From NCBI RefSeq assembly GCF_003340475.1, contig NZ_QBKA01000002.1:186001-250000 (forward strand): DNA of 64,000 bases, read 5' to 3'. The number at the start of each line of letters is the position of its first letter. The stretch's first letter is position 1. The position numbers and the translations under genes are program-made. Source of the DNA: Alteripontixanthobacter maritimus. GTDB lineage: Bacteria > Pseudomonadota > Alphaproteobacteria > Sphingomonadales > Sphingomonadaceae. A model generated the notes under the pieces. The model saw only the letters and a list, made by a program, of their open reading frames with translations. It had not been told where the DNA came from and made no database searches. Shown here one piece after another: positions 31,297 to 41,814 of this stretch.

Positions 31297-31824
31297 TTAG
31301 AATTTTGGGACCGGCCTTGCCGCAGCAACATCGTCATTCTGCGCCTCCCCATTGGCCTCGATATCGGCAAGCAGCCACTTCATTTCCGCAATCTCGCGTC
31401 GCTGTGCTTCGATAATCTCGTCCGCCAGTTTGCGAGCGCGCACATCATCGATTTCCGCTCGCTCGCTCGTCAGAATGGCGATCGAGTGGTGCGGGATCAT
31501 GGCTGACATCCACTCGCTGTCGTCGATGGTTGCTTGGCTGCGAACCAGGAACAGCGCGCCCGCGAAGACGACTGCGGCGGTGCCCAGAATGACCCAGTTC
31601 TTCGCCGCGTTGCGATACATGCCCCGCATGAAGAGCAGCATAACCACCGCCATTACCGCGCCCATGACGAACGTCATCCAGAAGCGCGTTTCGCTCCAGA
31701 ACACATGATCAAGCACAAAAGTGTTCAGATACATCAGGCCGAACATGATCGCGGTCGAGGTTCCGACCATCGCCATGAACCGTCCATAATTGCCGTCATC
31801 ATGCTGTTTTTCGTTGCGGGCCAT
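31297..31824 (-). CDS. DUF305-domain membrane protein
   Basis: A 175-residue protein with three or four N-terminal membrane segments (FMAMVGTSTAIMFGLMYLN, FWMTFVMGAVMAVVMLLFM, NWVILGTAAVVFAGALFLV), then a short DUF305-type segment with the conserved MIPHHSIAILTSERAEID and LADEIIEAQRREIAEMKWLL. DUF305 proteins often accompany copper and other heavy-metal genes, and the two histidines with flanking methionines are candidate metal ligands. The start at 31824 is set by GGAGAATGCC. It is the last gene of the minus-strand copper-response operon. Confidence 0.85.
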   Translation of the reverse strand: MARNEKQHDDGNYGRFMAMVGTSTAIMFGLMYLNTFVLDHVFWSETRFWMTFVMGAVMAVVMLLFMRGMYRNAAKNWVILGTAAVVFAGALFLVRSQATIDDSEWMSAMIPHHSIAILTSERAEIDDVRARKLADEIIEAQRREIAEMKWLLADIEANGEAQNDDVAAARPVPKF

Positions 31825-31847
31825 GGCATTCTCCTTCCTTTGCGGTG

Positions 31848-32606
31848 TTAAATCGCGATCCATCCCAGCGCCTTCGCACCCATCCACAGGCCCATGCCGA
31901 TCATGAACAGGTTCTCGGTCAGCGATACAAAGCCGAGGGGCACGTTGGAGCCGCCGCCGACGCACGCGCATTTTAGTTCGCGCTTATCGATATAGACCGC
32001 CTTAAAGACGCTGAACGCCCCAACGCCGCCGATGAACAGCGCGACAGGGACGGAAATGATGGGCAGCGCATGCGCGGTCATCAGGATTCCCGCTAGCGCT
32101 TCCGCGAACGGATAGACGAAGCCGTAGGGCACCCACCGTTTGGCGAGCAGGTCGTAATTGAGGAACATGGTCGAGAAGCTCCGCACGTCCTGCAGTTTCT
32201 GTATCGCCAGCAGGCACATGGACAGGCTGACGAACCACTCGGCTGCGCGCAGGGTCAGCAACTCTTCATACGCTGCCCAGCTCAAAGCCAGAGCCATCAG
32301 CAGCGCCATTCCGAAGATCGCGATCACCGGCTGATAGCTGGTCGCGCCTTCTTCTTTAACGCTCTTGCCGAAATATTCGCGCAAATCGTCATAACCGCCG
32401 ATCCGCTCGCCATCGATGAAGGTCTGCGGCGTGGTTTCGACATCGTGCTTAGCTTTGAACGCGTCCGTTTCCTCGCGCGTTTCCAGATGGTGATCATCAA
32501 TGGCGAACCCTTCGCGTTCGAGCAGGTCGATCGTTTTCAGGCCGTAGGGGCAGGTATGGTCCGGCATCACCATACGGTAGACGGTCGCGGTCTTCTTTTG
32601 CGGCAT
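31848..32606 (-). CDS. Glutaredoxin domain fused to MauE/DoxX-like membrane protein
   Basis: A 252-residue fusion. Residues 1-80 form a glutaredoxin fold (VYRMVMPDHTCPYGLKTIDLLE with a CPYG active site, and VETTPQTFIDGERIGGYDDL). Then follow about four membrane helices of the MauE type (VIAIFGMALLMALALSW, PVALFIGGVGAFSVFKAVY), with a loop KRELKCACVGGGSNVPLGF containing a CxC pair. MauE-like proteins help form disulfides or maturate periplasmic redox proteins. In a copper cluster this may supply thiol electrons across the membrane. The start at 32606 follows GGAGGGACC and overlaps the upstream stop (TAATG). Confidence 0.82.
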   Translation of the reverse strand: MPQKKTATVYRMVMPDHTCPYGLKTIDLLEREGFAIDDHHLETREETDAFKAKHDVETTPQTFIDGERIGGYDDLREYFGKSVKEEGATSYQPVIAIFGMALLMALALSWAAYEELLTLRAAEWFVSLSMCLLAIQKLQDVRSFSTMFLNYDLLAKRWVPYGFVYPFAEALAGILMTAHALPIISVPVALFIGGVGAFSVFKAVYIDKRELKCACVGGGSNVPLGFVSLTENLFMIGMGLWMGAKALGWIAI

Positions 32607-33082
32607 TACATGGTCCCTCCGTAGTCGGCCCATACGCTCGTGCCGGACGGACCGAAGGCGATGACCTGATAGGCCTCGCGATGCGTCCTGTGCTCCATGT
32701 CGGGCGAACCCATGGGCATTCCGGCCACCGCGAGACCAGCAATGCCTTCTGGGCGTTCGGCCAGCAGCCGTTCGATGTCAGCGGCGGGAACATGGCCTTC
32801 GATCACGTATCCATCGGCGATCGCCGTATGACAGGATCGTAGGCCGTCCGGCACGCCGTGTTCCGTTTTGACCGAAGCCATATCGGGGTGGTCGACCGTC
32901 TCAACACTATGCGCGTCGCCATTCTCCAGATGCGCCGCCCAAGCGAGGCAGCATCCGCAATTCGGATCGCGATACATAGTGATGGCCGCCGCCTGGGCAG
33001 CGCAGGCCGAGAGCGTCGCGCCGAGCGCGAGCATGCCGGCGAGGGAACGACGGGCGATTGCGGAACGGATAGTGTTGAACAT
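32606..33082 (-). CDS. DUF411 metal-binding protein
   Basis: A 158-residue secreted protein: signal peptide ending around ACAAQAA, then the DUF411 core with ITMYRDPNCGCCLAWAAHLE (Cys-Gly-Cys-Cys), DGLRSCHTAIADGYVIEGHVP and GLAVAGMPMGSPDMEHR. DUF411 proteins are periplasmic and commonly sit in copper-resistance clusters; the cysteines, histidines and methionines suggest Cu binding. AGGAGT precedes ATG 33082. The stop overlaps the next start (TAATG), giving tight coupling to the glutaredoxin-MauE gene. Confidence 0.88.
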   Translation of the reverse strand: MFNTIRSAIARRSLAGMLALGATLSACAAQAAAITMYRDPNCGCCLAWAAHLENGDAHSVETVDHPDMASVKTEHGVPDGLRSCHTAIADGYVIEGHVPAADIERLLAERPEGIAGLAVAGMPMGSPDMEHRTHREAYQVIAFGPSGTSVWADYGGTM

Positions 33083-33095
33083 GGGGATACTCCTG

Positions 33096-33686
33096 TCAGA
33101 AACCGAGATGATTGGGACCGTGGGCAAGCTCGGGACCGAGATAACCTTGAGCGAGAATGAGCGCAGCGCATCCAAACAGAAGCAATCTTGAGATCGCGAT
33201 ATGACCGCGCCCGGCCAAGAAGGCCGCAAGCGGGGCGACGATGGCGATGGATGTGCCGATCCACCGGTGCCATTGCATCGTTCCGCTTCCACCGAACCAA
33301 ATGCCGGTGTGAAACCACCCGAACATCGCGGTCACGACTGCGCCGACTGCGCCGTCCCACAGCATGATGCGCGCCGTTCCCTGAAGCGCTGGGGACGGAC
33401 GGACCATCACCGCAAGCTCAGTTAGGGCTGCCATCAACAGGAGGGCAATCGGAAAATGAACGGTTGCGGGATGAATGTTGCTGAGAATGGAGCCATCCTG
33501 CGCATCGTCGCCAGCGTCGCGCGCAGGCCTGATGCTTTCTGGCGAAACGGGCGTGGCTGCCGCTTCGGCTGCCGCAGTAACCTGCGCGGTTTGCCGCCCT
33601 TCGTGCTCGTCGGGGCCATGCGCTGACACTGCCTGACCGGACATAACCACCATTAGGGCAATCAACAGGAAAAGTAGGCGCTTCAA
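33096..33686 (-). CDS. DUF2231 membrane protein in the copper operon
   Basis: A 196-residue membrane protein. It begins with a signal-like helix (MKRLLFLLIALMVVMSG), a His/Glu-rich periplasmic stretch (SAHGPDEHEG) and an Ala/Pro linker, then four membrane helices starting with NIHPATVHFPIALLLMAAL, the DUF2231 hallmark. The histidine-containing helices could bind haem or metal; function is not established. The start is TTG 33686, overlapping the csoR stop (TTGA), with AAGGCGAAG upstream. Other start codons upstream lie inside csoR. Confidence 0.75.
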   Translation of the reverse strand: MKRLLFLLIALMVVMSGQAVSAHGPDEHEGRQTAQVTAAAEAAATPVSPESIRPARDAGDDAQDGSILSNIHPATVHFPIALLLMAALTELAVMVRPSPALQGTARIMLWDGAVGAVVTAMFGWFHTGIWFGGSGTMQWHRWIGTSIAIVAPLAAFLAGRGHIAISRLLLFGCAALILAQGYLGPELAHGPNHLGF

Positions 33687-33958
33687 CGCTTCGCCTTTTC
33701 GAACAGGTCGATCAACTCGTTGAACTTGACTTTCTGCTCTTCCGCATCGCCGCTGCCGATGGCTTCGGTGACGCAGCAGGCGGCATGGCGTTTGAGAATT
33801 TCGCTTTCCGCGCGCCCAAGGGCGGATTTCACGGCCTGGATCTGGTTGAGAATGTCGATACAATAACGGTCGTCCTCGACCATTTGCGCCACGCCGCGAA
33901 CCTGCCCTTCGACCCGCCGAAGCCGGTTCACGATCTTCTTGTCTTGCGCGCCGGCCAT
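33683..33958 (-). CDS. csoR: CsoR/RcnR-family copper-sensing repressor
   Basis: A 91-residue all-helical metalloregulator. The Cu(I) ligands of CsoR are present with correct spacing: Cys33 in DRYCIDILNQ, His58 and Cys62 in RHAACCVTEAI (a C-x24-H-x3-C pattern). Cu binding should release DNA and derepress the flanking genes. It starts the minus-strand operon behind GAGGAG and is divergent from copA across a short region with a TACCC-type operator at 33979. RcnR/FrmR paralogs are possible, but the ligand set and neighbours favour CsoR. Confidence 0.9.
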   Translation of the reverse strand: MAGAQDKKIVNRLRRVEGQVRGVAQMVEDDRYCIDILNQIQAVKSALGRAESEILKRHAACCVTEAIGSGDAEEQKVKFNELIDLFEKAKR

Positions 33959-33978
33959 ATAAAACTCCTCATATGAAA

Positions 33979-33994
33979 ATACCCTACTGGGTAT
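33979..33994. promoter_or_regulatory. CsoR-type operator between csoR and copA
   Basis: ATACCC (33979-33984) and GGGTAT (33989-33994) form a perfect inverted repeat around TACT, matching the general TACCC-N4-GGGTA pattern of CsoR-regulated promoters. It lies 21 bp upstream of csoR and 56 bp upstream of copA. A degenerate second site, ATAC followed by GGGGGGTAT, is at about 34001-34017. Confidence 0.75.
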
Positions 33995-34049
33995 CTTGCA
34001 ATACATATGGGGGGTATATAGAGGAGCTTCCAAAGGAGATGCAAGACCC

Positions 34050-35861
34050 ATGACCGATCTATCGATTTCCCGGCGGCATTTGCTGGGCGCGGGCGTAGTC
34101 GGCGCAGCCTCCCTTGCGGTTCCCGCATGGGCAAGGGGCGGCGATATTAGCCACGGCGGTATGCTACGTCAGGGGTTCGATGAAGTCTCCGGCTCCAGCA
34201 TCGATCTGACCATCGCGGAAGGCAGACGCATCGTGCAGGGTCGGCGCGGTCATGGGATCGCGGTCAATGGCAGCGTTCCCGGCCCTCTTATCCGCCTGAA
34301 GGAAGGCGAACCGGTCAAGCTTAACGTGACCAACATGCTGGACGAGGATAGCTCGATCCACTGGCACGGACTGCTCGTTCCATTTCAATTTGATGGCGTT
34401 CCAGGTGTGAGCTTCCCCGGTATCATGCCCGGACAAACGTTCGTCTATGACCTACCGCCGATCCGGCAGGCGGGGACCTATTGGTGGCATTCGCATTCGG
34501 GCATGCAGGAACAGTCCGGACATTACGGCCCCCTCATTATCGATCCTGCCGGACCCGATCCGATCCAGGCGGACCGGGAATATGTGCTGTTGCTGAGCGA
34601 GTTCACGCCGCTCCACCCACATACGATCATGAGCAAGCTGAAGAAGGGAGAAGGCTACTTCAACTATCAGCAGCGCACGATGACGGATGATTATCCCCTG
34701 TCTGCCGAAGAGCGCCGCATGTGGGCCGAGATGCGGATGATGCCGACGGACATTATCGATGTGACCGGATCGACCTATACCTACCTCGCCAACGGCTTCG
34801 GGCCGGACGAGATGCCCGAGTTCCTCTTCAATCCCGGCGAGAGCGTGCGGCTGCGCATCATCAACGGCAGCGCGATGAGTTTCTTTAACATCCGGATTCC
34901 CGGCGCGACAATGAACGTTGTCGCAGCGGACGGACTGCCGGTGCGCCCGGTGCCGGTGCAGGAGTTCCAGATTGGCACCGCCGAAACCTATGATGTGCTG
35001 GTGGAGCCGGTAGGCGAAGCCGTGACCATCGTTGCGGAATCGATGGACCGTTCCGGCATGGCGCTGGCCACGCTGGCAAGCACGCCGGGTGCGCGGGCGG
35101 CGATCCCCGCCCTGCGCGATCCGCCGCTTCTGACGATGGCGGATATGGGCATGAGCGGAATGGATCACGGTGGTATGGGTCATGGCGACATGGCCGCTGC
35201 CGGAAAAGCTGAGCCGATGTCCGGCATGGACCATTCGGCGATGGGTCATGGCGATGATGCGGACGCGGGTTCGATGGCGGGTGTGTCCATGGACGGCATG
35301 AACATGCGCGACACGTCCCTGCTGCCGCCGGATGTAAAGGTCGGGCCTGGCATCGACATGGTATCGATGAACCCGGTCGATCGGATGGGCGATCCTGGCA
35401 TTGGCCTCGGCGATGTCGATCACCGCGTTCTGACCTACAACGATCTGGTCGCGCTCCGGCCCAATTCGGATCGGCGAACGCCATCGCGGCAGATGGAGAT
35501 CCATCTCACCGGTAACATGGAACGCTACATGTGGTCGTTCGACGGGCAGAAGTTCACTGCCGTCAGCGACGATCCGATCCGGTTCGCCTATAACGAGCGG
35601 GTCCGGGTGAAGCTGGTCAATAACACCATGATGGCGCATCCAATCCATTTGCATGGATTGTTCTTCGAACTGGTCAATGGGGCACCCGATGGCTTCCAGC
35701 CGCACAAGAACGTGGTGATCGTCCAGCCCGGCGGCAGCGCAACGTTCGATCTCACCGCGAATGAGGAAGGCGACTGGGCCTTCCACTGCCATCTGCTCTA
35801 TCACATGCATTCGGGCATGTTTCAGATCGTAACGGTCACACCGGAAGGAACCGGAGCATGA
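34050..35861 (+). CDS. copA: Copper-resistance multicopper oxidase CopA
   Basis: A 603-residue periplasmic cuprous oxidase. A Tat signal (SISRRHLLGAGVVGAASLA) exports it folded. Three cupredoxin domains carry the copper ligands: HWHG near residue 102, WWHSHSG near 145, HPIHLHG near 530, and the T1/T2/T3 motif HCHLLYHMHSGM near 579. Residues ~365-420 form a Met/His-rich insert (MGMSGMDHGGMGHGDM and similar) typical of CopA and CueO that handles Cu(I). The start at 34050 follows AAAGGAG; upstream residues lie within the operator. copB overlaps it (ATGA). Confidence 0.95.
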   Translation: MTDLSISRRHLLGAGVVGAASLAVPAWARGGDISHGGMLRQGFDEVSGSSIDLTIAEGRRIVQGRRGHGIAVNGSVPGPLIRLKEGEPVKLNVTNMLDEDSSIHWHGLLVPFQFDGVPGVSFPGIMPGQTFVYDLPPIRQAGTYWWHSHSGMQEQSGHYGPLIIDPAGPDPIQADREYVLLLSEFTPLHPHTIMSKLKKGEGYFNYQQRTMTDDYPLSAEERRMWAEMRMMPTDIIDVTGSTYTYLANGFGPDEMPEFLFNPGESVRLRIINGSAMSFFNIRIPGATMNVVAADGLPVRPVPVQEFQIGTAETYDVLVEPVGEAVTIVAESMDRSGMALATLASTPGARAAIPALRDPPLLTMADMGMSGMDHGGMGHGDMAAAGKAEPMSGMDHSAMGHGDDADAGSMAGVSMDGMNMRDTSLLPPDVKVGPGIDMVSMNPVDRMGDPGIGLGDVDHRVLTYNDLVALRPNSDRRTPSRQMEIHLTGNMERYMWSFDGQKFTAVSDDPIRFAYNERVRVKLVNNTMMAHPIHLHGLFFELVNGAPDGFQPHKNVVIVQPGGSATFDLTANEEGDWAFHCHLLYHMHSGMFQIVTVTPEGTGA

Positions 35862-37105
35862 TCCGCCTATCATACGCCGCAGTCGCGCTGGCCGTCACAT
35901 TTCCGAGCGCCGCGTCGGCTCAGGATCATTCAGGTCACGCCGCAATGCCGGCCCAAGAGTTGAGCGATTGCGAAGCTGAAGCGGCCCGTCACCGCGCGAT
36001 GGGGCACCCTGTGCCTGCGGGCCAGTGCGCGCCGGCCTCAGCAGAAGACGTCCCGCAGCGATCTGTTGATACTAACGCTGAATGCGAAGCTGAAGCTGCG
36101 AGACATCGGGCAATGGGCCATCCCGTCCCGCCGAACCAATGCGCTCCGGACCAAGCACCGCAAACAGTTCAGGTAGCCGCTGATGCAGTTACGGAGTGCG
36201 AGGCGGAAGCGGCCCGCCACCGCGCGATGGGCCACACGGTTCCCGCCGATAGCTGTGAGCCTATGGAAAATGGGGAAATGGATATGGGCACTGCTGACGC
36301 CCCCATGGATCACGCCGCGATGGGTCATTCAATGTGGGGTCACGCCAGCGATACGGCGATCCCCTCCGGGCCGCCTCCTGCTGCGGCTGGAGCCGGTCCC
36401 CCACGCGCCGCCGATGCGATCTGGGGCGCGGAAGCCATGCGTGACAGCCGCAAAGCGCTCGCCCAAGAAAACGGCGGGATGAAAACGCTCTGGTTCCAGG
36501 GCGACCGCTTGGAATATCGCGCACGCGAAGGACGCGATGGTTATCTGTGGGATGTGCAAGGTTACTACGGCAGTGACCTGGACAAATTCTGGTTCAAGTC
36601 CGAAGGCGAAGGCAGTTTTGGCGAGGAGATTGAAGGCGCAGAAGTCCAAGCCCTCTACAGCCGCGCGATCGCGCCGTTCTTCGATCTGCAAACCGGTATA
36701 CGTCAGGATTTCGCGCCGATTGACCGAACCTATGCCGTGGTCGGCATTCAAGGTCTCGCGCCATATCTGTTTGAAGTAGATGCGGCTGCATTCCTGTCCG
36801 ACCAAGGTGACCTGACCGCCCGGATCGAGGTCGAATTGGACCAGAAAATCACTCAGCGGCTAGTCCTGCAACCGCGAGCGGAAATAAATCTGGCCGCGCA
36901 GGATGTTCCGGAAGTGGGCATCGGAGCCGGATTAGACACGATTGAAGCCGGGCTACGTCTGCGCTACGAGTTCGCCCGAGAATTCGCACCCTACATCGGC
37001 ATAGAGCAGGAATGGAAAGTCGATGGCAGCGCGGACTATGCTCGCATGACCGGGGAAGACCCAAGCGTCACAAACTATGTCGTGGGTTTGAGATTCTGGT
37101 TTTGA
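35858..37105 (+). CDS. copB: Copper resistance protein CopB with N-terminal Cys/His/Met repeats
   Basis: A 415-residue outer-membrane copper protein coupled to copA by ATGA. After the signal peptide (MIRLSYAAVALAVTFPSAASA) come three copies of a 20-residue motif beginning CEAEAARHRAMGH and ending in Cys, at residues 38-57, 76-95 and 114-133, each 38 residues apart. Then a Met/His stretch (MDMGTADAPMDHAAMGHSM), a Pro/Ala linker, and the C-terminal CopB beta-barrel (LWFQGDRLEYRAREG, ending GLRFWF). The barrel is ordinary; the Cys-flanked repeats are not part of CopB as I know it. Confidence 0.9.
   Translation: MIRLSYAAVALAVTFPSAASAQDHSGHAAMPAQELSDCEAEAARHRAMGHPVPAGQCAPASAEDVPQRSVDTNAECEAEAARHRAMGHPVPPNQCAPDQAPQTVQVAADAVTECEAEAARHRAMGHTVPADSCEPMENGEMDMGTADAPMDHAAMGHSMWGHASDTAIPSGPPPAAAGAGPPRAADAIWGAEAMRDSRKALAQENGGMKTLWFQGDRLEYRAREGRDGYLWDVQGYYGSDLDKFWFKSEGEGSFGEEIEGAEVQALYSRAIAPFFDLQTGIRQDFAPIDRTYAVVGIQGLAPYLFEVDAAAFLSDQGDLTARIEVELDQKITQRLVLQPRAEINLAAQDVPEVGIGAGLDTIEAGLRLRYEFAREFAPYIGIEQEWKVDGSADYARMTGEDPSVTNYVVGLRFWF
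35969..36256 (+). repeat. Three 60-bp coding repeats, period 114 bp, within copB
   Basis: Copies at 35969-36028, 36083-36142 and 36197-36256 encode C-E-A-E-A-A-R-H-R-A-M-G-H-x-V-P-x-x-x-C. The amino acids are almost unchanged while the third codon positions differ (for example GCGGCCCGT, GCTGCGAGA, GCGGCCCGC), so the copies are old and kept by selection. The spacers are unrelated in sequence but equal in length. Confidence 0.85.
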
Positions 37106-37270: not shown

Positions 37271-37903
37271 TCAGATTTCGGTCCGTTCCGCTAACAGCAA
37301 CGCGTCTTCGACATCGACGCCGAGATACCGAACCGTGTTCTCAATCTTTGAATGACCAAGCAAAATCTGGATCGCCCGAATGTTTCCGGTGGCACGATAG
37401 ATCATTGCAGCTTTGGTGCGACGGAGGGAGTGTGTCCCGTATTCTGCTTTGCGCAGGCCTATCGCTGTTACCCATTCATCCAACAAGCGAGCATACTGAC
37501 GAGTGCTCATAGGCTTCGCGTGGTCGACACGACTGGGAAAGATGTAGTCGGTCAAGGTTCCACCACGCCGTTCCAGCCACGATAAGAGGGAGGCGCGGAC
37601 ATCGCCGGTCAATTCAAACTGAACCGGCTTGTTGGTCTTTTGCTGAATGACGATCGCGCGTGTTCAAATTTCTTCGCCGGCAACGATGTCTCCGATCTTC
37701 ATTTTCACTAAGTCGCAACCGCGGAGCTTGCTATCGATTGCCAAATCGAAAAGCGCGCGGTCCCGCAATCGCACCTCGCGATCCAGAAAGAAGCGTATCG
37801 CCCAAATCTGCTTCTGTGTGAGAGGCCGTTTGACGCCTACGGTTTTACCATGGTTCCAAGGCGCGCGAGCGTGCATCGCAGGATCATATCGTGAGTAGCC
37901 CAT
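37271..37903 (-). pseudogene. Tyrosine recombinase/integrase interrupted by an in-frame TGA
   Basis: A 210-codon gene whose two halves lie in one frame, separated by a single TGA (37664-37666) after GDIVAGEEI; reading continues TRAIVIQQKTNKPVQFELTG. CGA (Arg) to TGA would explain it. The catalytic residues are all present: Arg in SKLRGCDLVKM, His-x-x-Arg in GTHSLRRTKAA, GH in LLGHSKIENT and Tyr in VRYLGVD. The C-terminal part alone is 113 codons but lacks the first arginine. The length fits a family of small solitary proteobacterial integrases. The next 289 bp to 38192 hold no recognised gene. Confidence 0.85.
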
Positions 37904-38627: not shown

Positions 38628-38711
38628 CATTCACGATTGGGTGGAAAGCGGAAGGTCTGGTTCTGAGCACCAGTATTGCCAATCGGACATGATCGAGCAA
38701 TTCTCTCGCTT

Positions 38712-39281
38712 ATGGAAAACGTGAAGACAAAACGGTTCATGCCACCCAAGATCGTCGTGATGAATGGGGTTAGCAGCGTTGGTAAGACGTCTGTGGCCAA
38801 GGCAATTCAAAATCACGCGAGCAGAGCTTTTCTGCATGTACAAATGGATGATTTCTTGAGGATGCTTCCCCGCCGTGCTTTTGAGGGCCAAGAAGGACTG
38901 ATTTTCAAACGCATCGACAGTCATACGATTGATGTGCAATCCGGCGATCTGGTCGAGCGCGCTCTGGCTGGCATGCGCAATGCCGTCGCCTCGATGGCTG
39001 AATGCGGCAACGACATGGTAGTCGACGACGTATTTTTTGCGGACGAAGACGCTGATTACCGCCGATTGCTAAAGCAATATGATGTTCGGTTGGTTGGGCT
39101 TTTCGCACCGCTGGAGGTTGTGTAGGAGCGGGAACGCATACGCGGAGATAGGGATATTGGCCTAGCGAAAGGCCAGTATGATCGTGTCCACAGGAACCGA
39201 GTTTATGATCTTGAGTTGGACACCTCGCACAACTCCCCGGATCAGATTGCTCAAGAAATTTGTAAGGCTTTCTCCCTCTAA
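38712..39281 (+). pseudogene. Chloramphenicol phosphotransferase-like gene with in-frame TAG
   Basis: The N-terminal kinase part is intact: PPKIVVMNGVSSVGKTSVAK (Walker A GVSSVGKT) and DDVFFADEDADYRRLL. Translation stops at TAG (39123-39125) after FAPLEVV, but the same frame continues for 51 codons with ERERIRGDRDIGLAKGQYD, VYDLELDTS and a natural TAA at 39281, which is the expected C-terminus of CPT-family proteins (including the lid arginines). GAG or CAG to TAG would explain it. The 137-codon product lacks the lid region and is probably inactive. The start could also be ATG 38739. Confidence 0.85.
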
Positions 39282-39815: not shown

Positions 39816-40216
39816 CTGCAGATGTCGAGAATGCCGTGACCAAAATCGCAGAAATGGATCTCGAAGCACTGCGCACCACGTGGAGGAGCCGCTACGGCGC
39901 TCCTCCCATGCTCCGTTCAACTCTTCTAATGCGGCAACTACTAGGATGGCGAATACAGTCCGAAGCGTTTGGCGGTTTGAATACCGAGATCCGCAAGACA
40001 CTGGCGCGATCCGGCTCTGTGCAGCCGGAAGGCAAGCATCTTGGCATCGGCGCGAGATTAACCCGCCACTGGAAAGGACGGGAAGTGACCGTTGTGGTCG
40101 AGGAAACTGGGTTCCGGTGGAAGGGTGAGATGTTCCCCAGCCTCTCGGCAGCGGCTACCGCGATTGCTGGCTCTCGCTGGAACGGGCCTCGGTTCTTTGG
40201 CCTGAGGGAAAGTTGA
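39812..40216 (+). CDS. DUF2924 domain protein
   Basis: A 134-residue basic protein. The DUF2924 pattern is visible: LEALRTTWRSRYGAPPMLRS, LGIGARLTRHWKGREVTVVV, and FRWKGEMFPSLSAAATAIAG. The C-terminal half (SAxAxAIxG with NGPRFFGL) resembles the DUF4357/RAMA-like fold thought to bind nucleic acid. It is the middle gene of the module, overlapping both neighbours (ATGA with DUF3489, TTGA with the recombinase), so all three are made together. Confidence 0.88.
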   Translation: MTADVENAVTKIAEMDLEALRTTWRSRYGAPPMLRSTLLMRQLLGWRIQSEAFGGLNTEIRKTLARSGSVQPEGKHLGIGARLTRHWKGREVTVVVEETGFRWKGEMFPSLSAAATAIAGSRWNGPRFFGLRES

Positions 40217-41814
40217 TACTCGAGACAACTAAGCGCTGTGCCATCTATACTCGCAAAAGCTCTGAGGAAGGCCTCGAACAATCGTTCAACAGCCTTGATG
40301 CACAGCGCGAGGCTTGCGAGTCGTACGTGCTGAGCCAAGCCAGCGAACGCTGGGAGGCATTGCCAAACCGCTACGACGATGGCGGGTTCTCCGGCGGCAA
40401 CACCACGCGTCCTGGATTGAAGGCGCTGCTTGACGACATTGAAGCGGGACGCGTTGATGTTGTCGTCGTTTACAAAATTGACCGGCTGACCCGCAGCCTT
40501 GCCGACTTCGCGCGCATCGTTGCAATCTTCGACGCTGCAGAGTGTAGCTTTGTCTCGGTGATCCAGTCGTTCAACACCACCGGTTCGATGGGCAAGCTGA
40601 TGCTCAACGTTCTGCTCTCCTTCGCCCAGTTCGAGCGCGAGGTCACCGGCGAGCGGATCCGCGACAAAATTGCGGCGTCGAAAGCGAAGGGCATGTGGAT
40701 GGGTGGCAACCCTCCGCTAGGCTACGACAAGCCCGAGGATGATAGGCGTATCCTTCGCGTGAACGAGGTAGAAGCTAAAATCGTCCGCGATATGTTTACG
40801 CAATATCTTGGGCTCGGCTCGGTTCATGCTCTTCAGCTTAGCCTTGCTGAACGGGGAATTTGCTCCAAGCGATGGATAACCGAAAAAGGCAGGATCATGG
40901 GAGCCAAAGCGTTCAGCCGAGGGGCGCTGTTCCATCTTCTGCGCAACCAACTTTACCTCGGGCAGATCGTTCACAAGGACCAAGTGCACGAGGGAGGTCA
41001 TGCTGCGATCGTTCACCAAGATTTGTTCGACCAAGTCCAGCAGCATCTCGATGGCAATGCACGGCGGCATCGCGCGAAAGCCGGTCGCCGCAAGGTCGTA
41101 GCTCCGCTGATGGGCAAGCTGTTTGATGCGGCGGGCGAGCCGATGAGTCCGACCACCTCGCGCGGCAAGTCGGGCAAGCGCTATCGCTATTATGTGTCTG
41201 CATCGTTGCAGCAGCGTACCAGGCCAGCAGATGAGACATCGCTCCAACGCCTTTCAGCTTTAGAGATTGAGCGGGTTGTCGGCGAAGCGATCCAGCGCTG
41301 GGTACCGAGAGCTTCTGATCCGTTTGCAATCTTGCGCTCGGTCCACATGTCGGCGCGCGGGCTGCATGTTTCGATCGAGGCGAAAGATGGTGGAAGCATC
41401 GCTAGAGCGCTGACCGGTGATGAAACAATCGCGGATCACACCGCTGATTACACCACCGTGCTATTGCCGGTCGCATTGCCAATGCGCGGCGGCAAGAGGC
41501 TTGTCGTGCCATCAGTCCAGCGCCGCACTCAGCCCGATCCGATCCTTGTAGCAGCGCTCCGCAAAGCTCACGCGATGCTGGACACCGAACGCGGTATGCC
41601 GATGATCAGTACAGTGCCAACCTCGCCCTATGATCGCAACATCCTGCGGCTCGCATTCCTGGCGCCGGACATTCAACGCGCGCTGCTCGAAGGACGCCAG
41701 CCGTATCATCTCAACCTCGAGACAATGAAGAAAATCGACTTCCCACTATCATGGTCCCGGCAGCGCAAAGTGCTGGGATTTAGCGAAACCGAAAATCCCT
41801 GTTCTGCCGATTAA
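40213..41814 (+). CDS. Large serine recombinase
   Basis: A 533-residue site-specific recombinase. The resolvase catalytic domain carries the nucleophilic serine in AIYTRKSSEEG (Ser16), DGGFSGGNTTRPGLKALLDD, VYKIDRLTRSLADF and GKLMLNVLLSFAQFEREVTG. It is followed by the recombinase domain (GNPPLGYDK...) and a zinc-ribbon-like region (APLMGKLFDAAGEPMSPTT) in which classical cysteines are replaced. The start is TTG 40213, overlapping the DUF2924 stop. The C-terminal codons contain the first CCCTGTT of a repeat cluster that continues past the stop. Confidence 0.9.
   Translation: MILETTKRCAIYTRKSSEEGLEQSFNSLDAQREACESYVLSQASERWEALPNRYDDGGFSGGNTTRPGLKALLDDIEAGRVDVVVVYKIDRLTRSLADFARIVAIFDAAECSFVSVIQSFNTTGSMGKLMLNVLLSFAQFEREVTGERIRDKIAASKAKGMWMGGNPPLGYDKPEDDRRILRVNEVEAKIVRDMFTQYLGLGSVHALQLSLAERGICSKRWITEKGRIMGAKAFSRGALFHLLRNQLYLGQIVHKDQVHEGGHAAIVHQDLFDQVQQHLDGNARRHRAKAGRRKVVAPLMGKLFDAAGEPMSPTTSRGKSGKRYRYYVSASLQQRTRPADETSLQRLSALEIERVVGEAIQRWVPRASDPFAILRSVHMSARGLHVSIEAKDGGSIARALTGDETIADHTADYTTVLLPVALPMRGGKRLVVPSVQRRTQPDPILVAALRKAHAMLDTERGMPMISTVPTSPYDRNILRLAFLAPDIQRALLEGRQPYHLNLETMKKIDFPLSWSRQRKVLGFSETENPCSAD

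Follow-up and report, generated by a model that had tools for sequence, protein, structure and literature searches.

Cysteine-framed HxxMGH units repeated in the tail of a sphingomonad CopB, a candidate copper-capture module

The 64,000-nucleotide stretch of the Alteripontixanthobacter maritimus genome analysed here (contig NZ_QBKA01000002.1, positions 186,001–250,000; hereafter the window) carries the copper-resistance genes copA and copB, and the periplasmic tail of CopB contains three copies of a 20-residue unit in which two cysteines frame an H-x-x-M-G-H core (Table 1). The identity of CopB, already proposed in an earlier note made on the sequence, is confirmed by a Pfam scan (PF05275, 286.5 bits against a cut-off of 27) and by a match of residues 216–415 to the solved PcoB chain 7pge_B (E = 1.2 × 10−46). 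CopA scores 744 bits against the family of copper-resistance multicopper oxidases (TIGR01480, cut-off 478.95). The host genome encodes one CopB, and its repeat region matches nowhere else in that genome.

The units follow the pattern C-E-A-E-A-A-R-H-R-A-M-G-H-x-V-P-x3-C, recur with a period of exactly 38 codons and each contain two Cys, two His and one Met, as the earlier note had described. At the 13 identical residues any two copies differ at 4–9 third, 0–1 first and no second codon positions. Over all 20 codons, the proportion of synonymous differences (pS) is 0.86 for copies 1 and 2, 0.71 for copies 1 and 3 and 1.10 for copies 2 and 3, compared with proportions of nonsynonymous differences (pN) of 0.09, 0.11 and 0.15, respectively. 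These values agree with the earlier suggestion of purifying selection on the unit and, since the silent sites are near saturation, indicate that the duplication is old and that the amino acids have been conserved since. Because most silent sites differ between the copies, an artefact of assembly or copying is ruled out. The best 13-residue self-match of the tail is 13, compared with a maximum of 8 over 300 composition shuffles, and a profile of the unit produces three matches at an E-value of 0.001 in the host genome, all in this CopB. The intervening linkers had been described as equal in length and unrelated; the equal length stands, but a weak likeness persists between linkers 1 and 2 (26 of 54 bases shared, P = 0.028 by codon shuffles), between the segments that follow units 2 and 3 (25 of 54, P = 0.005) and between those that follow units 1 and 3 (21 of 54, P = 0.088), so that duplication probably involved the full 114-base segment.

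Table 1. Features of the copAB locus (positions within the window).
Feature	Positions	Strand	Residues	Basis or remark
Metal-sensitive repressor family protein, divergent	33683–34051	−		PF02583, E = 2.3 × 10−28
copA, periplasmic multicopper oxidase	34053–35861	+		TIGR01480; stop overlaps copB start
copB, 415 aa	35858–37105	+	C-terminal outer-membrane barrel, 212–415	PF05275
Probable signal peptide (...AASA before Q-D-H)	35858–35920	+	1–21	Read from sequence, cleavage site inferred
Cys-framed HxxMGH unit 1	35969–36028	+	38–57	
Linker 1, 18 codons	36029–36082	+		
Cys-framed HxxMGH unit 2	36083–36142	+	76–95	
Linker 2, 18 codons	36143–36196	+		Weak likeness to linker 1
Cys-framed HxxMGH unit 3	36197–36256	+	114–133	
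Ordinary Met/His-rich stretch without Cys (EPMENGEMDMG...MDHAAMGHSMWGH)	36257–36355	+		Translation

The 176 residues preceding the barrel, including the signal peptide, contain 11 Met and 11 His. Between the signal peptide and the barrel no Pfam family scores above its cut-off and no NCBIfam family is found at an E-value of 1, in line with the earlier proposal that the units are a plausible copper site outside known domains. DUF7640 (PF24646) was considered over residues 38–136 and rejected (12.8 bits against a cut-off of 28.1, E = 0.14). After the likely signal-peptide cut, the mature tail begins Q-D-H-S-G-H (35921–35938, + strand). In an alignment of 38 CopBs (A2), Ala21 and Gln22 are invariant and His24 and His27 nearly so, none of these positions being imposed by the pattern with which sequences were collected. 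A free X-X-H start at the mature N-terminus would form an amino-terminal Cu(II)- and Ni(II)-binding (ATCUN) site for Cu(II).

The distribution of the unit was assessed in a family sample of 298 genomes, by a class-wide profile search of 385 genomes and by DNA pattern searches of 84,980 species genomes; the pattern scans may omit records of, or very near, the window genome, and a genus-level search reached the window genome only. CopB is present in 234 of the family genomes and the unit, at an E-value of 0.001 or better, in 38 including that of the window; the tandem arrangement scores 195 bits in the window compared with 41 bits for the best other genome. Class-wide, full-length matches occur in the window genome only. 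The best other match (L033 in genome G355, from another family; E = 3.2 × 10−5) reads KEIVRHRAMGHPL followed by a stop, lacks the first Cys and may be chance or a broken remnant. A degenerate DNA pattern for a single unit identified 88 stretches among the 84,980 genomes, with the unit in an open frame in 88 of 88. This frame includes the CopB barrel in 84 loci and reaches the end of the stretch or masked bases in the other four (L064, L079, L109 and L124). A single unit is found in 87 of the 88 loci, and it is in this form that the CopBs of many Erythrobacter-like bacteria carry it. The remaining locus, L092 from a metagenome-assembled Erythrobacter sp., has three units 46 and 54 residues apart. 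Because of this spacing L092 was missed by a tandem pattern with linkers of 12–22 residues, which has no match in the 84,980 genomes. Within what was searched, the window and L092 are thus the two three-copy cases, and the 38-residue period is special to the window CopB among the long-unit loci found. The earlier note had called for such a comparison of repeat number and had suggested that the repeat may be a new copper-binding module; the unit itself proves to be shared by many CopBs, and it is the strict 38-residue period that remains particular to it. The window tail has no match in plasmids at an E-value of 0.01.

Several counts (Cys, CopA pairing and a quick tree) use the first 80 of the 88 pattern loci. 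Of 70 complete CopBs (that of the window and 69 from these 80 loci), 69 have a Cys-free barrel. Ahead of the barrel, 65 contain exactly two Cys, and the other five contain six (the window), seven (L092, one of them in the signal-peptide region), three, three and four. The invariance in alignment A2 of the C, E/D, A, H, R/S, M, G, H and C positions is not used as evidence, because loci L062–L149 were selected by a pattern that demands those residues.

A shorter version of the unit, C-[PT]-P-E-H-A-A-M-G-H-C, is read in CopBs without the long unit, often in tandem. The corresponding DNA pattern, C-x3-H-x2-M-G-H-C, occurs in 47 of the 298 family genomes (26 of 96 genera), compared with one genome for a reversed control pattern. 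Class-wide it is found in two of 367 genomes, one belonging to the same family and the other (G554) to another family, where it also lies in CopB. On plasmid pYGP1 of Sphingobium sp. YG1, CopB has three short units and CopA a single one. A further sample comprised 121 CopB frames on 120 stretches chosen by the barrel alone: 16 carry one long unit, 20 carry one to five short units and 85 carry neither. The tails of these proteins contain 84 H-x-x-M-G-H cores: 60 are flanked on each side by a Cys no more than nine residues away, 22 are free of Cys both internally and nearby, and in two (L300 and L359) a Cys within the core is followed by another beyond it, a third geometry with the sequence H-C-A-M-G-H-L-P-P-E-Q-C. 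Every Cys-bearing core therefore has two Cys (62 of 62, in three geometries), as counted by a search centred on the core and covering pairs at that core, which speaks for the Cys pair acting jointly, whether by forming a disulfide or by providing two ligands, and being tied to the core. L163, a CopB tail devoid of Cys, shows another type of His/Met repeat expansion, with nine ADPHAGH-type repeats that are almost identical.

Structure prediction with AlphaFold2 using the 38-CopB alignment places helices at residues 32–47, 72–85 and 113–123. The predicted local distance difference test score (pLDDT), averaged in ten-residue blocks, is 76–93 over most of the units, 63 and 70 at the ends of units 2 and 3, 52 and 39 in the linkers and 37–45 in the tail after the units. 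The tail alone, modelled without an alignment, gives helices at residues 32–47, 68–85 and 102–123 at lower confidence. Projected on a helical wheel, the His (340°) and the Met (280°) share a face with the first Cys (0°); the Met lies just past the predicted helix end.

The short unit also occurs in CopA. In the barrel-chosen sample a CopA unit accompanies 15 of 20 CopBs with short units and two of 100 others (Fisher P = 4 × 10−13); in a second sample the figures are 14 of 20 short-unit pairs and two of 60 others. The window CopA has a Met-rich insert with the sequence MDHSAMGH near residue 389 and, according to the alignment, no Cys unit there. From the 16 unit-bearing CopAs of the second sample, ten were aligned to it, and in all ten the unit occupies one and the same column, on this MDHSAMGH; the core of the unit is thus the ordinary copper motif, in which neighbouring residues have been replaced by Cys.

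In a tree of combined CopA and CopB-barrel sequences (18 rows from 19 wanted loci, L098 having no CopA), the window groups with the single-unit loci L070 and L062 (support 100/99) and L092 with the single-unit locus L102 (support 100/99). A shared origin of the two three-copy CopBs is rejected when their grouping is forced (approximately unbiased test, p-AU = 3.9 × 10−5, for a pair chosen for its trait after the quick tree had been seen). The simplest reading is two separate triplications of the long unit, although repeated loss of units may have occurred instead. The window tail has five M-[DNEG]-H motifs and that of L092 four, and the single-unit relatives have two (L070), five (L076 and L102), six (L067), seven (L098) and 12 (L062). 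Since low counts are also found in some of these relatives, the case for extra units compensating for missing Met/His motifs is weak.

The divergent PF02583 protein upstream of copA is, from its position, a likely regulator of copAB. It belongs to a set of genes facing copAB (31297–34051, − strand) that encode a DUF305 protein, a glutaredoxin–MauE fusion, DUF411 and DUF2231 proteins and the metal-sensitive repressor; together with copAB these metal-linked genes look like one copper island. Directly after copB lies a 113-residue piece of a tyrosine recombinase (37271–37612, − strand) that covers positions 77–169 of the Phage_integrase profile (172 positions); 3 kb further on, a large serine recombinase is encoded (40213–41814, + strand). 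The proximity of these recombinases suggests that the copper genes lie at or in a mobile element. A frame at 38676–39125 (+ strand) resembles chloramphenicol phosphotransferase and zeta-toxin-like kinases (PF07931, E = 2.7 × 10−21).

Taken together, we favor, with a probability of roughly 0.6, an interpretation in which a known His/Met copper motif became a capture loop closed by cysteines and was multiplied. Each unit would form a short helix with Cys, Glu and His on one face, followed by M-G-H and a return loop to the second Cys. The His, Met and His could bind copper, and the two Cys could either form a disulfide that closes the loop or, in the reduced state, provide thiolate ligands. The tail might then capture periplasmic copper beside the pore of the barrel, with the Met-rich docking segment of CopA probably being either its source or a competitor. 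Copy number would follow capacity, so that the tripling, which the window CopB appears to owe to an old tandem duplication, would raise the capacity close to the pore. In favor of this reading are the CopA–CopB context, the position of the CopA units on MDHSAMGH, the pairing of the Cys, the mostly silent divergence of the copies, the helices and higher pLDDT predicted at the units and the failure of the two three-copy CopBs to group. In a study of Caulobacter PcoB (PMC12509749), deletion of residues 34–109 raises both copper sensitivity and cell copper, replacement of nine His or four Met in the tail leads to higher cell copper, and the tail stabilizes PcoA. The host genome has three strong hits and two weaker ones to DSBA, a family that includes enzymes forming disulfides, so unmetallated Cys pairs would be expected to oxidize. 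The effects of the PcoB tail and the DSBA-family matches make a cysteine-closed copper-capture loop, with the Cys serving as staple or as thiolates, the most likely function.

Several observations weigh against this interpretation. Confidence in the model of the isolated tail is modest (mean pLDDT 69; predicted template-modelling score, pTM, 0.27). When kinship is considered, the link between units in CopA and CopB is reduced to two independent pairs on supported branches (five on all branches), too few to reach significance. Long-unit CopBs are never accompanied by a unit in CopA (0 of 68 with the window included, 0 of 80 and 0 of 16, in overlapping sets). In Caulobacter, growth of the His and Met mutants in copper matched that of the control, and the tail can be shortened or have its sequence swapped (PMC12509749). 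Escherichia coli PcoB lacking residues 27–81 binds as much Cu as the full-length protein (PMC9210255), so such tails may be weak or transient copper sites. The 85 of 121 CopBs with neither form of the unit indicate that it is dispensable in general.

Some of these observations could be accommodated if the Cys pair were solely a structural staple, a permanent disulfide that stiffens a disordered tail or shields it from proteases, with copper held on ordinary Met/His motifs elsewhere and additional copies merely setting the length of the tail. The invariable pairing of Cys at the cores of the barrel-chosen sample, the DSBA-family matches, the tolerance of the Caulobacter tail to sequence change and its stabilization of PcoA (both from PMC12509749) would all be compatible with such a role. 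A staple has no need of H-x-x-M-G-H, however, yet the pair is tied to this core in all three geometries (in a core-centred search), and CopA bears Cys on its copper-docking motif; a purely structural role thus appears unlikely. Stabilization of PcoA would also fit helical units whose main task is contact with CopA, or with some other partner in the periplasm, rather than copper binding, as would the helices predicted at the units and the co-occurrence of short units in both proteins (15 of 20). This is rendered improbable by the lack of a CopA unit beside any long-unit CopB and by the nature of the conserved side chains, which are soft-metal ligands. A neutral tail segment duplicated in a disordered region and kept without benefit would explain why the number of short units varies from one to five and why 87 of the 88 long-unit loci have a single copy; it would hardly explain a core unchanged in all three copies while silent sites approach saturation and the linkers have decayed, nor the failure of the two three-copy proteins to group (p-AU = 3.9 × 10−5), and we regard drift as very improbable.

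A more elaborate form of the favored copper-capture loop is also conceivable but doubtful, namely that Cys-framed H-x-x-M-G-H loops are an unnamed modular, redox-gated periplasmic Cu(I) element that has been independently duplicated and tuned in number. The dithiol would bind Cu(I) tightly through Cys2-His-Met ligation and pass copper from CopA to the CopB tail, oxidation to the disulfide would release Cu(I) at the pore, and sphingomonads would have placed such loops in CopB and, in the short form, also in CopA. The units bear on the question of how an outer-membrane protein such as CopB moves copper without an energy source. A modular, countable unit at a fixed site in the tail, with natural one-copy, three-copy and higher-copy variants and a counterpart in some CopAs, offers a handle on copper capture by the tail, on the taking of copper from CopA and on whether periplasmic Cys act as ligands or as a staple.

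In its barrel, its operon with CopA and apparently also its Met/His-rich periplasmic tail, the CopB of the window resembles known CopB/PcoB proteins (PF05275; 7PGE). The published E. coli and Caulobacter tails are described in terms of His and Met, unlike the Cys-framed units found here; in the main text, the word cysteine occurs once in PMC12509749 (in a methods line) and never in PMC9210255. Among the top-listed titles and abstract openings of word searches in a literature collection with few subscription papers, no description of a Cys-framed module or its repeats was found, and a text search of 5.39 million open papers found no mention of core sequences of the long or short unit. CopB and its metal-binding tail are known, and the cysteine-framed module and its repeats are apparently new. 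The Met-rich segment of CopA/CueO-type oxidases has the same H-x-A-M-G-H core, and it is exactly there that the short CopA units lie (10 of 10 aligned); that of the window CopA contains no Cys, unlike the CopB units. To our knowledge, the Met-rich segments of these oxidases usually lack Cys. Extra Cu has been placed on the Met-rich segments of CueO (PMC8456105). The same source describes periplasmic copper proteins with Cys close to the metal, among them CutF with its CXXXC motif and CopG with a Cys-bridged cluster. A CutF-type CXXXC chaperone motif is rejected for the unit, the Cys of which are separated by 18 residues rather than three, and the C-x18-C or C-x9-C arrangement around a His/Met core sets the present units apart from CutF and CopG as described there.

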